Source: Dehalococcoidia bacterium (GTDB lineage Bacteria; Chloroflexota; Dehalococcoidia; Dehalococcoidales; W498). Taken from it: a DNA stretch of 34,189 nucleotides. The stretch lies in the NCBI GenBank assembly GCA_011191875.1, contig DUFC01000012.1:1-34189 (forward strand), in the 5' to 3' direction. The position numbers were made by a program, and so were the translations under genes. The notes under the pieces are model-generated. The model searched no databases. It worked only from the letters and a program-made list of their open reading frames with translations, and was not told where the DNA came from. Below, in pieces: positions 13,535 to 29,019 of this stretch; position 1 is the first letter of the stretch; each line of letters opens with the position of its first letter.

Positions 13535-15988
13535 GTGCCAATAAATGTTGAGCCTCTGCATAAGATTCTTGAATTAGAATGTAAAAGGGGTTATGTAGAT
13601 TCAGCAGTAATTGGTGGTTTGGATAGCTTCTTTCACAACTGGGCTGGTCAGGCTATAGAATCGATAACTAACCCTCAGCTCTTAAACCGTTTTCATGAAC
13701 TTCATCTTGCTAACCCTAATTATGCCTCCTTGACTAAGCAGCAGCGTAAAGAATGGGTAAATAATGTGCTTAACTTTGTAGCTGAGGCAGAGCCCAAGGA
13801 AGAGGAAATAGTTAAAGCAAAGCCAATACCGCTGGTTAGTAAGCTTTCTTCTAGACCAAAACGACCCGGTGTAGTAGCTAAACAATCCATTGATTCAGCC
13901 ATTACTACTATTAGGGGCATTAGCTCAAGCCTGGCTACCAAGTTTAACCGGTTGGGGGTAAAGACAGTCCGAGACTTGCTCTATTTCTTCCCGCATCGTC
14001 ACCTTGACTACAGCCATAGGAGTTCTATCTCTGAGCTTGTTGAGGGAGAGGAGCCGACTATTATTGTAAATGTGTGGCAGGCTAAGGAGATTATACTGGG
14101 TGGCAGGCGTAGCACTGAGGCTATTGTTGGCGATGAAACCGGCAATATCAGGGTAGTATGGTTTAATCAACCCTACTTGGCTAGGAAGCTAGTTACTAAT
14201 ACTAAGATTGTTCTTAGTGGTAAGGTGAGACTGTTTAACGGACGACATGTGTTTGAATCCCCGGAGTGGGAGGTTGTTGAAGATAAAGAGTTAATTCACA
14301 CCGGGCGCCTGGTTCCCATCTACCCTCTCACTCAGGGATTGCACTCCCGCCAAGTTAGAAAATTGATGAAAGGGGTTATAGACCAGTGGGCGTGGCAGGT
14401 GGAAGATTATTTGCCACAAGAGTTGAAAGAGCGGTGTAACCTTCTGGAGCTATCTGAGGCAATAAATCAGGCTCACTTCCCAGAAAATGAAGTACTGAAG
14501 GACAAGGCAAGGGTTCGCTTGGCTTTTAATGAGCTATTTCTCCTACAGTTAGGTGTGCTGAACAAGAAACGCGACTGGCAGGAGGACCAGCCAGGTAGCC
14601 CTTTTAGTACCGAGACACCAGTGCTAGATGCTTTTATAAGTTCTTTGCCCTTTGAACTAACTGCGGCTCAACACAGAGTTCTCAAAGAGCTACTGGCTGA
14701 TTTAGAGAAACCAATACCGATGTCCCGGTTATTACAGGGTGAGGTAGGTAGTGGCAAGACGGTAGTAGCTACGGCAGCTCTGCTAGTGGCTGCTGCCAAT
14801 AACTATCAGGGAGCATTTATGGCGCCTACTGAAATTCTGGCTGAGCAGCATCATTCGGCTATTTGCGAGCTTCTATCTAGAGTAGGACATCAAGAGGAAG
14901 GGAAAGATTACCTCTGTAGCTATTCCGGTCTGGTATCACATCCTCTTACTGTGGCACTACTTATTGGTGACATTAACCAGGTTAAGAAACAGAAGCTCCA
15001 GCAGGATATTGTAAATGGAGATATAGATATCGTTATTGGAACCCACGCTCTTATTCAAAAGGGAGTGGAGTTCTGCCGATTAGGGTTCGCCGTAGTAGAT
15101 GAGCAGCACCGATTTGGAGTTACCCAGCGCTCAGCACTACGGCAAAAAGGATTTAGTCCTCATGTGTTGGTAATGACGGCTACACCTATCCCACGAACTC
15201 TAGCCCTGACCTTATATGGCGACCTTGACCTGTCGGTTATAGACCAGCTTCCTCCGGGGAGACAGGAAATAAAGACCAAGTGGCTTAAACCAGGGCAAAG
15301 GGATAGCGCCTATGCTTTTATCCGCCGTCAGGTAGCTAGCGGTAGCCAAGCATTTATTATCTGCCCACTTATTGAAGAGTCAGAGACAATTCAGGCTAAG
15401 GCGGCAATAGCTGAATATGAACGCTTATCTGATGACGTCTTCTATGACTTACGACTGGGCTTGCTTCATGGGCGTATGCCGGCTAGTGAGAAAGATAAGA
15501 TAATGCGTTGTTTTCGCTCTGGCGAGCTGGATATTCTGATTTCAACTCCGGTGGTAGAAGTAGGCATAGATGTACCTAATGCTACGGTGATGCTGATAGA
15601 AAGTGCTGACCGTTTTGGTCTTTCGCAGTTACACCAGTTTCGTGGCCGGGTGGGACGTGGACAGGAGCAAAGCTACTGCATACTGTTAGCCGAAAACCCT
15701 TCAGAGGTCAGTAGAGAGAGACTTGACATAATAGAGAAGATTCAAGATGGCTTCAAACTGGCTGGAGAGGACTTGAGTCGGCGGGGTCCGGGAGAGTTCT
15801 TTGGCACCAGGCAGAGTGGTTTACCTGAACTTCGCATGGCTAGGCTTACCGATGTGGCACTACTAGAGCTAGCCCGAAGTGAGGCAATAAAACTATTTCA
15901 GATAGACCCCGGCTTGGATAAGTCTGGGCATCATCCTCTAGCTAAGGAGCTAGCTCGAGTATGGCCGGAGGCTGGTGAATGGAGCTAG
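13535..15988 (+). CDS. recG: ATP-dependent DNA helicase RecG
   Basis: LLQGEVGSGKTVVA, DEQHRFGVTQR, VMTATPIPRTLALTLYGDLDLSVIDQLPPGR, HQFRGRVGRG, SRRGPGEFFGTRQSG. GTG start, N-terminal extension of about 120 aa. Confidence 0.97.
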   Translation: MPINVEPLHKILELECKRGYVDSAVIGGLDSFFHNWAGQAIESITNPQLLNRFHELHLANPNYASLTKQQRKEWVNNVLNFVAEAEPKEEEIVKAKPIPLVSKLSSRPKRPGVVAKQSIDSAITTIRGISSSLATKFNRLGVKTVRDLLYFFPHRHLDYSHRSSISELVEGEEPTIIVNVWQAKEIILGGRRSTEAIVGDETGNIRVVWFNQPYLARKLVTNTKIVLSGKVRLFNGRHVFESPEWEVVEDKELIHTGRLVPIYPLTQGLHSRQVRKLMKGVIDQWAWQVEDYLPQELKERCNLLELSEAINQAHFPENEVLKDKARVRLAFNELFLLQLGVLNKKRDWQEDQPGSPFSTETPVLDAFISSLPFELTAAQHRVLKELLADLEKPIPMSRLLQGEVGSGKTVVATAALLVAAANNYQGAFMAPTEILAEQHHSAICELLSRVGHQEEGKDYLCSYSGLVSHPLTVALLIGDINQVKKQKLQQDIVNGDIDIVIGTHALIQKGVEFCRLGFAVVDEQHRFGVTQRSALRQKGFSPHVLVMTATPIPRTLALTLYGDLDLSVIDQLPPGRQEIKTKWLKPGQRDSAYAFIRRQVASGSQAFIICPLIEESETIQAKAAIAEYERLSDDVFYDLRLGLLHGRMPASEKDKIMRCFRSGELDILISTPVVEVGIDVPNATVMLIESADRFGLSQLHQFRGRVGRGQEQSYCILLAENPSEVSRERLDIIEKIQDGFKLAGEDLSRRGPGEFFGTRQSGLPELRMARLTDVALLELARSEAIKLFQIDPGLDKSGHHPLAKELARVWPEAGEWS

Positions 15989-16001
15989 GTATATAGGTAT
16001 A

Positions 16002-16559
16002 ATGGAAAAATTAGAAATTGTTCAAATCGTGATGGTATCCATATTCGCAGTAACATTGATAGTTGCAATTATTGGTACAGTCTTCAGCATAAAAGCGGCT
16101 AAAGCCGCAATAGAGACGGCTTCTAAAGAATCAAGACCTTGGGTTTTTCCAGTTAAAATTAACACATACTTGCACAGAGATATGATGACAATAAAGGTCG
16201 AAATAACGAATGGGGGAAAGATTCCCGCTTTTATGAAACTAACTCCTTGTATGAAGGTTGGATCTGAAACTAAAAAGCCAGAGGAAACTGAAACAAGTCT
16301 GTCAATTATAATGCCAAATCAAGTCGTTAAGACCTCTTTTGTAGTAAAAAATGCTTCGTACCAAGCTGTAATCAAAGGGGAAAAAGATTTAGCAATAGAT
16401 TTGGCAATTGAATATTCTGACAGAAAAGAGAAAATTGATAAGTATTTTTCTCATACTATTTGGGGGTTTGAACCAACTTTTATACCTACTAGTTGGGATC
16501 GGGTATCTCCAATTGAAATGGTAGCTATTTGGAGAATTAGCAGTGCAGATATGAAATGA
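16002..16559 (+). CDS. Hypothetical membrane-anchored protein (single N-terminal TM helix)
   Basis: The ATG at 16002 gives MEKLEIVQIVMVSIFAVTLIVAIIGTVFSIKAAK, a TM helix followed by a soluble beta-rich domain. Visibly AT-rich relative to flanks. Confidence 0.7.
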   Translation: MEKLEIVQIVMVSIFAVTLIVAIIGTVFSIKAAKAAIETASKESRPWVFPVKINTYLHRDMMTIKVEITNGGKIPAFMKLTPCMKVGSETKKPEETETSLSIIMPNQVVKTSFVVKNASYQAVIKGEKDLAIDLAIEYSDRKEKIDKYFSHTIWGFEPTFIPTSWDRVSPIEMVAIWRISSADMK

Positions 16560-26202: not shown

Positions 26203-26216
26203 TTAGTTATTCTTCC

Positions 26217-26246
26217 GCTTAATAAGGGGATGAAGGGGATAGGGCT
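26217..26246. repeat. Partial copy of the G-rich dispersed repeat
   Basis: cgcttaataaggggatgaaggggataggg; compare cccttaataaggggaggatagggg at 4374-4397. Confidence 0.4.
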
Positions 26247-26370
26247 TTAACCAATTCCATTACTCTTTGTTGGACAGTATTAAAGGTAAAAGCTATAATC
26301 GCAGATAGATATGCGCTGTAAATATAATTTAGTTATGCCTTAGAACTATCATGACTCTGGGTATTAAGAC

Positions 26371-26399
26371 TTGACACGCGTGCTAAAACATTGCATATT
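26371..26399 (+). promoter_or_regulatory. Sigma70-type promoter for the unknown four-gene cassette
   Basis: Consensus TTGACA (26371-26376), 17-bp spacer, CATATT (26394-26399), followed by SD GAGGAGG (26421-26427). Inverted repeat GCTAAA/TTTAGC spans the spacer and -10. Confidence 0.55.
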
Positions 26400-26464
26400 T
26401 AGCGTGGAACTATAAATAATGAGGAGGAATAGCGATGGCTAAGTAAGCAAAACCGAAGGCAGGG

Positions 26465-27067
26465 ATGGAGGAGAACGTTACTGAGTTAGCTCACATTCTT
26501 ACCGATAACCCATTAATAGAGCAGCGGATTCGTGAAACCATCGAGCATCATTTGAAGCGGGGAATCGATGGTGAGACCTATATCAATATATTTACGAGCT
26601 TGAAAATCCTCGTGGGAACAAAAGCAAGACGCCTTATAGTGGATTCATTCCTAGCTAATTCGAGCAAATTCTTCGAGGATATAAGAGAGCAAATTGAAGG
26701 TGAGGGCATAGACAAAGTCCTTCCCTTTCTGCAATATATCACCGCGCTATACGGGGATGAACTAGAAAAGGCTTACGATTTGTTTGGCGAAAAGGCTGAT
26801 GATTGGAGAACTGCGGACATTACCGCATTCCGTGAGGGTGGGGAAAAGGAGACTTGGTTCATCGAGCTAGATCTTACAAAGAATAATGGTGAGAAGGTTT
26901 ATCTGCGAACGCTACCGTGGTCAGCCTTGGTACTTGCACAGCGCCTCCTCAGAGAAATAGATAAAGCGCCCAAAGAGATGATTGTTGAAGAACTCATTAC
27001 AACGTTCAACGAAGAAATCAAGTCTTTCCAGGAAAAGTTCTTAGGACACAGCAGCAAGGAGAATTGA
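26465..27067 (+). CDS. Hypothetical protein, cassette ORF1 (200 aa; in-frame UAA just upstream, see findings)
   Basis: Long ORF with coherent amphipathic protein sequence (LTDNPLIEQRIRETIEHHLKRGIDGETY...). No family recognised. Confidence 0.7.
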   Translation: MEENVTELAHILTDNPLIEQRIRETIEHHLKRGIDGETYINIFTSLKILVGTKARRLIVDSFLANSSKFFEDIREQIEGEGIDKVLPFLQYITALYGDELEKAYDLFGEKADDWRTADITAFREGGEKETWFIELDLTKNNGEKVYLRTLPWSALVLAQRLLREIDKAPKEMIVEELITTFNEEIKSFQEKFLGHSSKEN

Positions 27068-27070
27068 GCA

Positions 27071-27505
27071 ATGGACCCCGGTATCGCAGCGTTGTTAGGT
27101 GCACTTTTGGGCGCATTTGCTGGAGGGGGATTTTCATTTCTGGCTACTTGGTATCACTTAAAAAAACAACGGGAAAAAGATATTTGGATTAGGAAAGTAT
27201 CTCGGCTTGAAGAGGCAGATATAAAGATTTTCCAACCTTTCTTGAAGTACGCATATAGATTAGATGTTAAGCATGATGTCAATGACCTCAATGGCATATT
27301 GGGGGCATTACGAGAGGGGAGAACTTGTTTTACCTATTGCACCAACGATTTAAGGCAAAAGCTTCTTGAGCTTTATTCAACTTTAGAGAAAAAGGTTACG
27401 GAAAGGGAGGGAAGGTGGGATGAGGAGTATATTGATAATATCGCTCCGAATATCAAGCATATTGAAACTTTGATTTACGATGCTTTCTCCTCAATGGAGC
27501 TATAG
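27071..27505 (+). CDS. Hypothetical protein with N-terminal TM/signal anchor, cassette ORF2
   Basis: MDPGIAALLGALLGAFAGGGFSFLATWYHLKKQREKD: Gly-rich TM helix then a charged helical domain. Starts 3 nt after ORF1 ends. Confidence 0.7.
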   Translation: MDPGIAALLGALLGAFAGGGFSFLATWYHLKKQREKDIWIRKVSRLEEADIKIFQPFLKYAYRLDVKHDVNDLNGILGALREGRTCFTYCTNDLRQKLLELYSTLEKKVTEREGRWDEEYIDNIAPNIKHIETLIYDAFSSMEL

Positions 27506-27507
27506 AT

Positions 27508-27936
27508 ATGGAAGAGAAATCGGGCGATTTTGGTTGGAGACCCGCGATTGGAAAGCCATCACTTGAAGAGATAGGATTTGAGCGTCTTCGCGATGCAAAA
27601 AGGAGGATAGAGAGGCTTCAGGAGAAAATCTATTGTAAAGTCGAGGAATACATTGAACAACAAGTTAAGCCTCATGAAGACATCACTAGTGAAGAGATGG
27701 AAGAGCTTAAGCAGCGTTTATTTCAGACTTACAAAGATCAACGGGTAAAACCTCTCGAAGAGGAAGCCAAGGTATGTGAAGAATACCTCGAAACGGCGAT
27801 AGATAAAGACAGGAGAGTGACCAAAAAACTCGAGGAGGCGGAACGAGAGTTTAAAGATGTTTCAGAATTTGAGCTTAAAAGATCATCCGAGAGGACATTG
27901 AGAGACATTCGTAGGGAAAAGGAAGAGAAAGCATGA
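27508..27936 (+). CDS. Hypothetical coiled-coil protein, cassette ORF3
   Basis: Highly charged heptad-like sequence (RLRDAKRRIERLQEKIYCKVEEYIEQQ...KKLEEAEREFKDV). 2 nt after ORF2. Confidence 0.7.
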   Translation: MEEKSGDFGWRPAIGKPSLEEIGFERLRDAKRRIERLQEKIYCKVEEYIEQQVKPHEDITSEEMEELKQRLFQTYKDQRVKPLEEEAKVCEEYLETAIDKDRRVTKKLEEAEREFKDVSEFELKRSSERTLRDIRREKEEKA

Positions 27937-28418
27937 AAGATGTATCTATTGGCATAATATTTACCCCTCTTACGGCAGAAGACTGGGATTTAAAGGAAAT
28001 ATCAGCGGAAATAACAAGGAAGGGTGAATTCGAAGAGATTCATTCACCTGATAACTATTATGTATGGCTCTTATCCATTGAGGGGAGAACCGAAGTCGGA
28101 GTCTACTTCGATGGAATGGTCTATTACATCAAAAAGGTACGAGAGGAAGATGTTACTCCTACGCAAATGCTCGACATTGTAAAAGAGGGCTTTGACTTTA
28201 TACAAAACTCAACACTTGATAAAGAATACTTACGGAGGATAGGGCTAGTAATAAGAGGTAAGCAGATGAAAGGTTTCTATGCCGAGAAGGAACGAGTGAT
28301 AGAGGAATTTGGCAAAAGGCTGTTTGCAAAGCCCCTTATTGGAGAGGCAGAAATAACTGATTCTGATATCCAAATGTCCATTAGAGAGATGCCGCTTCTA
28401 AGTTTTACATCTAGCTAA
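27933..28418 (+). CDS. Hypothetical protein, cassette ORF4
   Basis: ATGA overlap with the ORF3 stop. MKDVSIGIIFTPLTAEDWDLKEISAEITRKGEFEEIHSPDNYYVWLLSIEGRTEVGVYFDG... Confidence 0.7.
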   Translation: MKDVSIGIIFTPLTAEDWDLKEISAEITRKGEFEEIHSPDNYYVWLLSIEGRTEVGVYFDGMVYYIKKVREEDVTPTQMLDIVKEGFDFIQNSTLDKEYLRRIGLVIRGKQMKGFYAEKERVIEEFGKRLFAKPLIGEAEITDSDIQMSIREMPLLSFTSS

Positions 28419-28485
28419 GGATGTGCGTTGGTATCTAGCCTTTCTTGAACCAGGATTTGAGGGAGGACTATAATCTGAGTTAGCT

Positions 28486-29019
28486 ATGGATTCTCAACCT
28501 ATACTTCATATCCTTCTCACCAAGGAAGAGATAGAAGCCGCAGTCAAACGGCTGGCGGCTGAAATAAAAGAGAATTACCAAGGTAAGTATCCCCTTTTGA
28601 TAGGTGTTCTAAAAGGTTCTTTTATGTTTATGGCTGACCTGATTCGGCAGCTTGACTTCCCACTGGAGGTGGATTTTATCCGGTTATCTAGCTATGGTCG
28701 GGGTAAGGAGACTTCAGGGAGGATCAAAGTGGTGCAGTATCTCCACTCCCAAATTAAAGGCAGGGATGTGTTGGTCATTGAGGACATAGTGGATACTGGT
28801 ATCACTACTGGTTTTCTCTTGGATTATTTGCACAAGAAAAAGCCGGCCTCTTTGAGGCTCTGTACTCTGACTGACAAGCCTTCCCGGCGTCGTGCTCCGG
28901 TTACCATTGATTATCTGGGTTTCACCGTTCCCAATAAGTTCCTGGTGGGTTACGGGCTGGATTTGAACGAGAAGTTCCGCAATCTTCCCGATATATGCGT
29001 TTTGGAGGAGGAAAGTTGA
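28486..29019 (+). CDS. hpt: Hypoxanthine phosphoribosyltransferase
   Basis: LLIGVLKGSFMFMADLIRQL, VDFIRLSSYG, DVLVIEDIVDTGITTGFL (PRPP loop), VGYGLDLNEKFRNLPDICVL. Confidence 0.96.
   Translation: MDSQPILHILLTKEEIEAAVKRLAAEIKENYQGKYPLLIGVLKGSFMFMADLIRQLDFPLEVDFIRLSSYGRGKETSGRIKVVQYLHSQIKGRDVLVIEDIVDTGITTGFLLDYLHKKKPASLRLCTLTDKPSRRRAPVTIDYLGFTVPNKFLVGYGLDLNEKFRNLPDICVLEEES

Follow-up and report, generated by a model that had tools for sequence, protein, structure and literature searches.

Caspase-type modules of bacteria, chloroflexi among them, are interpreted as systems of conflict or regulated death whose effectors can be exchanged (PMC7159879, PMC8195603). They are multi-gene systems in which caspase-type components are combined with adaptors and effectors are swapped. 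In Craspase, the CHAT protein TPR-CHAT/Csx29 is combined with partner proteins (PMC9729208, PMC10028731), an arrangement comparable to that of operons which we found to carry relatives of a gene in the locus described here. This locus is a cassette of four genes (ORF1–ORF4) within a window of 34,189 nucleotides, which is the whole stretch of DNA analysed. It differs from Craspase in having neither a CRISPR component nor CHAT. The hallmarks of the ternary/EAD conflict systems (Kaur et al.), namely MoxR-vWA, VMAP, iSTAND, GAP1 and known EADs, were not detected in ORF1–ORF4 by Pfam and NCBIfam scans, which are blind to any domain that lacks a model in these libraries.

Two groups of operons resembled the cassette. 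The CHAT operons of three genomes (G783, G857 and G779) share with it a clear ORF1 homologue (about 21–29% identity), small helical partners and tight operon packing. However, they end in a caspase-like CHAT protease, whereas family scans of the cassette found neither this protease nor another effector that could be recognised. Their ORF1-family gene is the third of the operon, whereas ORF1 is the first of the cassette. The operons of three other genomes (G199, G470 and G527) have no adjacent CHAT, like the cassette, and place an ORF1 homologue beside two helical proteins (A4 and A5), one of which has a hydrophobic terminal helix; no sequence relation of A4 or A5 to ORF2–ORF4 could be demonstrated.

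Four intact genes between DUF72 and hpt

The cassette is encoded on the forward strand and consists of ORF1 (26465–27067, 200 aa), ORF2 (27071–27505, 144 aa), ORF3 (27508–27936, 142 aa) and ORF4 (27933–28418, 161 aa). The earlier note on this DNA had described four co-directional frames joined at intervals of 3, 2 and −4 nt, and all coordinates, lengths and junctions were confirmed, including the ATGA overlap between ORF3 and ORF4. When 2.05 kb sequences were simulated with a Markov-1 model and the longest ORF of each trial was recorded, the median was 90 aa and a length of at least 142 aa was reached in 3.7% of the trials. Four successive same-strand ORFs of 142–200 aa are far beyond chance. 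The GC content and codon usage of the cassette resembled those of the host and of the neighbouring genes. As that note had also stated, the cassette has housekeeping genes on its flanks, which we identified as holA, DUF72, Pribosyltran (hpt) and adenine deaminase. The note had raised a link to defence islands; no such island surrounds the cassette here, and no defence genes neighbour it.

None of the four products, which the first reading had failed to recognise, gave a match of meaningful score in Pfam, NCBIfam, PADLOC or PHROG. Matches to LapA_dom, ACT_phage, COPR5 and other families were below threshold and were attributed to chance, as was the one sub-threshold match in an Rfam search. PADLOC families of known anti-phage systems were likewise not found for any of the ORF1–ORF4 proteins.

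ORF2 is predicted to be a membrane-anchored protein with a helical cytosolic domain, in accord with the earlier description. Its N-terminal hydrophobic helix (residues 5–23, hydropathy maximum 1.81) carries a GxxxGxxxG motif (G10, G14 and G18) and is followed by KKQREK, from which the cytosolic placement of the helical domain is predicted. By composition, ORF3 encodes the highly charged, helical product that had been proposed (51% charged residues), which is soluble and coiled-coil-like. ORF4 is a predicted alpha/beta protein, and it took an alpha/beta form in a low-confidence model; single-sequence AlphaFold models were poor for both ORF1 and ORF4 (pLDDT 48 and 43, respectively).

Family libraries and genome searches gave no significant homologue of ORF2, ORF3 or ORF4. 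The three genes had no relative in 157 genomes of the host class, a search of 393 genomes of this class gave no credible match to ORF4, and neither ORF1 nor ORF4 had a relative in the 60 nearest genomes. No relative was found when viral contigs were scanned with all four ORFs, or when phages and plasmids were scanned with ORF1, ORF2 and ORF4. When ORF1 and ORF4 were used in two pattern scans across 84,980 species genomes, there was again no match; such scans depend on nearly exact peptides of 8 residues, and they overlooked the remote relatives of ORF1 that were detected by searching whole genomes. An ORF4 match in G149 (E = 0.0045) was a short overlap inside a 1163-aa helicase-like protein and was rejected as chance. 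The complete ORF1–ORF4 set was present in no other genome searched. Co-conservation of the four genes is thus not supported: ORF2–ORF4 were present in none of the other genomes searched, which by the earlier note's own standard speaks against a fixed four-gene system.

The ORF1 family and its operons

The search with ORF1 matched a 228-aa protein of G199, a genome of the same class and another family (E 2e-7). A match in G265 from the same search (E = 0.009) was a short overlap with a much larger or unrelated gene and was discarded as chance. A profile of the two sequences detected relatives in two genomes from other parts of the phylum, G470 and G527 (E about 1e-27), and the resulting four-sequence profile detected those of G783, G857 and G779 (E 1e-26 to 1e-30). 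Against a leave-one-out profile built from the six remote relatives with ORF1 excluded, ORF1 scored 93.1 bits (E 1e-24 at Z = 1e6), and the best of 2000 shuffles scored 6.8 bits. In tblastn searches of the six relative loci with ORF1, all six were significant (E 4e-15 to 1e-8). The alignment of the seven sequences has twelve invariant columns, including YG, W and K-x-NGE; Y96, G97, W114, K139, N141, G142 and E143 were identical in 7 of 7 sequences. ORF1 thus shows the full-length similarity, including the YG...W...K-x-NGE core, by which the family is defined, and its membership in an undescribed protein family is well supported by these comparisons.

This family, known solely from the members found in this analysis, has no model in Pfam, NCBIfam, PHROG or PADLOC. 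Profile matches to designed helical proteins in the PDB covered only short helical stretches and were set aside. The family was represented in 2 of 245 host-class genomes and in 5 of 249 genomes of another class, a rare and patchy distribution as expected of accessory conflict genes. In the family tree, the CHAT-linked relatives split from the others with moderate to good support, and ORF1 formed a very long, deep third branch.

The six relatives belong to two conserved types of operon, all within the phylum of the host. In G783, G857 and G779, the genes are tightly packed on one strand in the order A7, A8, ORF1 family and CHAT protease. A7 (about 200–220 aa) and A8 (about 160–195 aa) are both helical. 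The gene directly downstream of the ORF1-family gene matched the Pfam CHAT model in all three genomes (E 7e-25, 1e-22 and 9e-27; 88.5, 81.3 and 94.7 bits against a cut-off of 24), and PADLOC SAVED_CHAT also matched the CHAT protein of an ORF1-family operon (E 1e-15). His212 and Cys257 (numbering of the G783 protein) were invariant across the three proteins, and we take them, from known caspase-clan motifs, to be the putative catalytic dyad. No sequence match to the CHAT proteins of these relatives was found among solved structures. The CHAT proteins (L050 6386–7669, L051 2373–3653 and L052 8405–9700) also share a conserved C-terminal helical tail (HERNRRVLEEQ...), which may be an adaptor-type domain. 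The tail had no Pfam or plasmid match, and we could not confirm that the CHAT C-terminus represents an effector-associated domain common to several proteins. In the host genome itself, which is about 94% complete, there was no match to PF12770 (CHAT).

In G199, G470 and G527, the order is A4, A5 and ORF1 family. A4 (about 180 aa) ends in the hydrophobic helix, A5 is about 375 aa long, and both are helical. A4 and A5 are related to each other (up to 33 bits), and A5 is weakly related to A7 (13–14 bits). A small gene of G199 with a LuxR-type (GerE) HTH (L035 4091–4399), downstream of the ORF1-family gene and co-directional with it, is a possible regulator of this operon.

Comparison of the cassette with these partner proteins gave at best a hint. 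Residues 42–106 of ORF2 aligned with the C-terminal part of the A7 profile at 3.3 bits, a score equalled by 8 of 1479 shuffles. We do not claim homology of ORF2 to A5 and A7, as a combined A5 and A7 profile gave only 0.2 bits and the segment aligned to A5 (4.3 bits) differed from that aligned to A7. ORF3 and ORF4 gave no signal against the partner proteins A4, A5, A7 and A8.

The 5' end of ORF1 holds a feature that was absent from the earlier note. An ideal Shine-Dalgarno sequence, AGGAGG (26422–26427), precedes an ATG at 26435 that is in frame with ORF1, but the fourth codon is TAA, so that the frame reads MAK*AKPKAG-MEEN... and the usable start of ORF1 is 26465, which has only a weak upstream GAAGG. 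In alignments, the relatives have an N-terminal extension ahead of the conserved domain, and a longer ancestral start of ORF1 is therefore plausible. The site of the mini-ORF (ATG GCT AAG TAA, 26422–26446 with its Shine-Dalgarno sequence, forward strand) may be a start cut short by a nonsense mutation, a minimal leader ORF or an error in the assembly.

Copies of the hpt leader on both sides of the cassette

The earlier note had asked whether relatives lack the cassette at the DUF72–hpt junction. This was checked in one genome of the same genus (G001), and there the cassette was indeed absent: DUF72 and hpt are adjacent on one contig, 488 nt apart. The last 100 nt of the G001 hpt leader (L004 1404–1503) aligned to positions 26211–26313 of the window, to the left of the cassette, with a score of 112, which was reached by 0 of 1000 shuffles (maximum 29). 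Its last 49 nt aligned to positions 28439–28487, to the right, with a score of 32, again reached by 0 of 1000 shuffles (maximum 24). The upstream half of the G001 leader resembles the left copy and the downstream half resembles the right copy, and the core CTATAATC is common to all three. Because the G001 leader matches both ends, an imperfect direct repeat of approximately 50 bp brackets the cassette.

A TATAAT-type promoter is retained on each side. The left leader copy (26211–26313, forward strand) contains TGGACA-N17-TATAAT at 26271–26299 (11/12 in the promoter scan), and the right copy (28439–28488, forward strand), which runs into the hpt ATG, contains TTGAAC-N18-TATAAT at 28445–28474 (10/12). 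Thus hpt keeps a promoter, and the left leader copy reads into the cassette. As for the cassette promoter that had been claimed, TTGACA-N17-CATATT (26371–26399, forward strand), the string is present and scored 10/12 in the consensus scan, but it is not significant alone, as 5 promoter-like matches were found against 4.9 expected; it is retained as putative.

The alignments with this one relative fit both a gain of the cassette by recombination at the hpt leader and a loss in G001 between the repeats. In the DUF72–hpt gap of G001 (L004 1014–1403) there is another small frame, on the minus strand, which encodes a hydrophobic stretch and appears to be degraded. This junction is therefore variable, and genes may have been gained and lost here repeatedly. 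The accessory status of the cassette is well supported, and we read it as a laterally variable operon which in this lineage sits at the 5' end of hpt and which is missing from the relative.

Possible roles of the cassette and competing explanations

The proposal of an accessory module in the earlier note was upheld in part. The unrecognised operon, the empty site in the relative and the occurrence of the ORF1 family beside CHAT agree with it, whereas the four genes are not conserved together; a sensor/effector role of the cassette is possible. By analogy with caspase-type modules that bear exchangeable effectors, the most likely role of ORF1 is that of adaptor or regulator in a conflict module (defence or regulated cell death), and the cassette is probably an accessory module of the defence or cell-death type. 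The reading that we prefer, which we put a little short of an even chance, is that the cassette is an accessory operon built on an adaptor family of CHAT operons, which lacks the protease and may have a membrane effector in its place.

The main rival, somewhat unlikely in our estimate, is that unrelated orphan genes were inserted, ORF1 being a fragment of a CHAT-type operon beside three unrelated small genes with no joint function. The restriction of ORF2–ORF4 to this genome among those searched, the very long branch of ORF1 and the in-frame stop that has cost ORF1 its best start codon all agree with such an origin. However, the four frames are intact and packed at 3, 2 and −4 nt, with host-like GC content and codon usage, which is not expected of a decaying chance assembly. 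A mobile element or prophage that had integrated at the hpt leader, and of which the cassette is a remnant or the cargo, would account for the absence of the cassette from the same-genus genome and for the imperfect direct repeat with its core CTATAATC at both ends. Nevertheless, this repeat derives from the hpt leader itself, and neither an integrase, transposase, relaxase or phage gene was found within or beside the cassette, nor a tRNA, a PHROG match or a relative in viral contigs, phages and plasmids, so that we regard such an origin as improbable. The cassette, with its small coupled genes, a membrane-anchored product and a highly charged one, could also be a module of the toxin-antitoxin-like or stress type, with ORF2 as a membrane toxin that its neighbours neutralise. 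This too is improbable, since Pfam, NCBIfam and PADLOC gave no similarity to toxin or antitoxin families and the relatives of ORF1 are found in CHAT operons rather than in toxin-antitoxin loci.

If the cassette is an accessory operon of the adaptor family, as we prefer, it would be a protease-free variant in which the membrane protein ORF2 is, speculatively, the best effector candidate. ORF2 might be kept inactive by a scaffold of ORF1 and ORF3; if ORF4 or ORF1 sensed a trigger, the complex might rearrange, and the released ORF2 could then oligomerise and disturb the membrane. A broader version, which we consider doubtful, is that the ORF1 family is a novel group of adaptors in a modular conflict system whose exchangeable effector is CHAT in one subtype, an unidentified protein in a second and a glycine-zipper protein in the cassette. 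The cassette would then be a third, protease-free subtype, in which the glycine-zipper membrane protein ORF2 is partnered by the coiled-coil ORF3 and the alpha/beta ORF4.

An anonymous block of genes is now tied to a protein family that has no library model and is consistently encoded beside CHAT or beside the helical proteins that are its likely partners. If this family is an adaptor that links sensing to exchangeable effectors, the principle of effector swapping would reach small genomes (about 1.1 Mb), in which cell-death systems are less expected. Elsewhere in the window, an unrecognised 194-aa protein without a Pfam match is encoded at 15975–16559, in a low-GC patch after recG, and has a strong N-terminal membrane helix (hydropathy 2.90).
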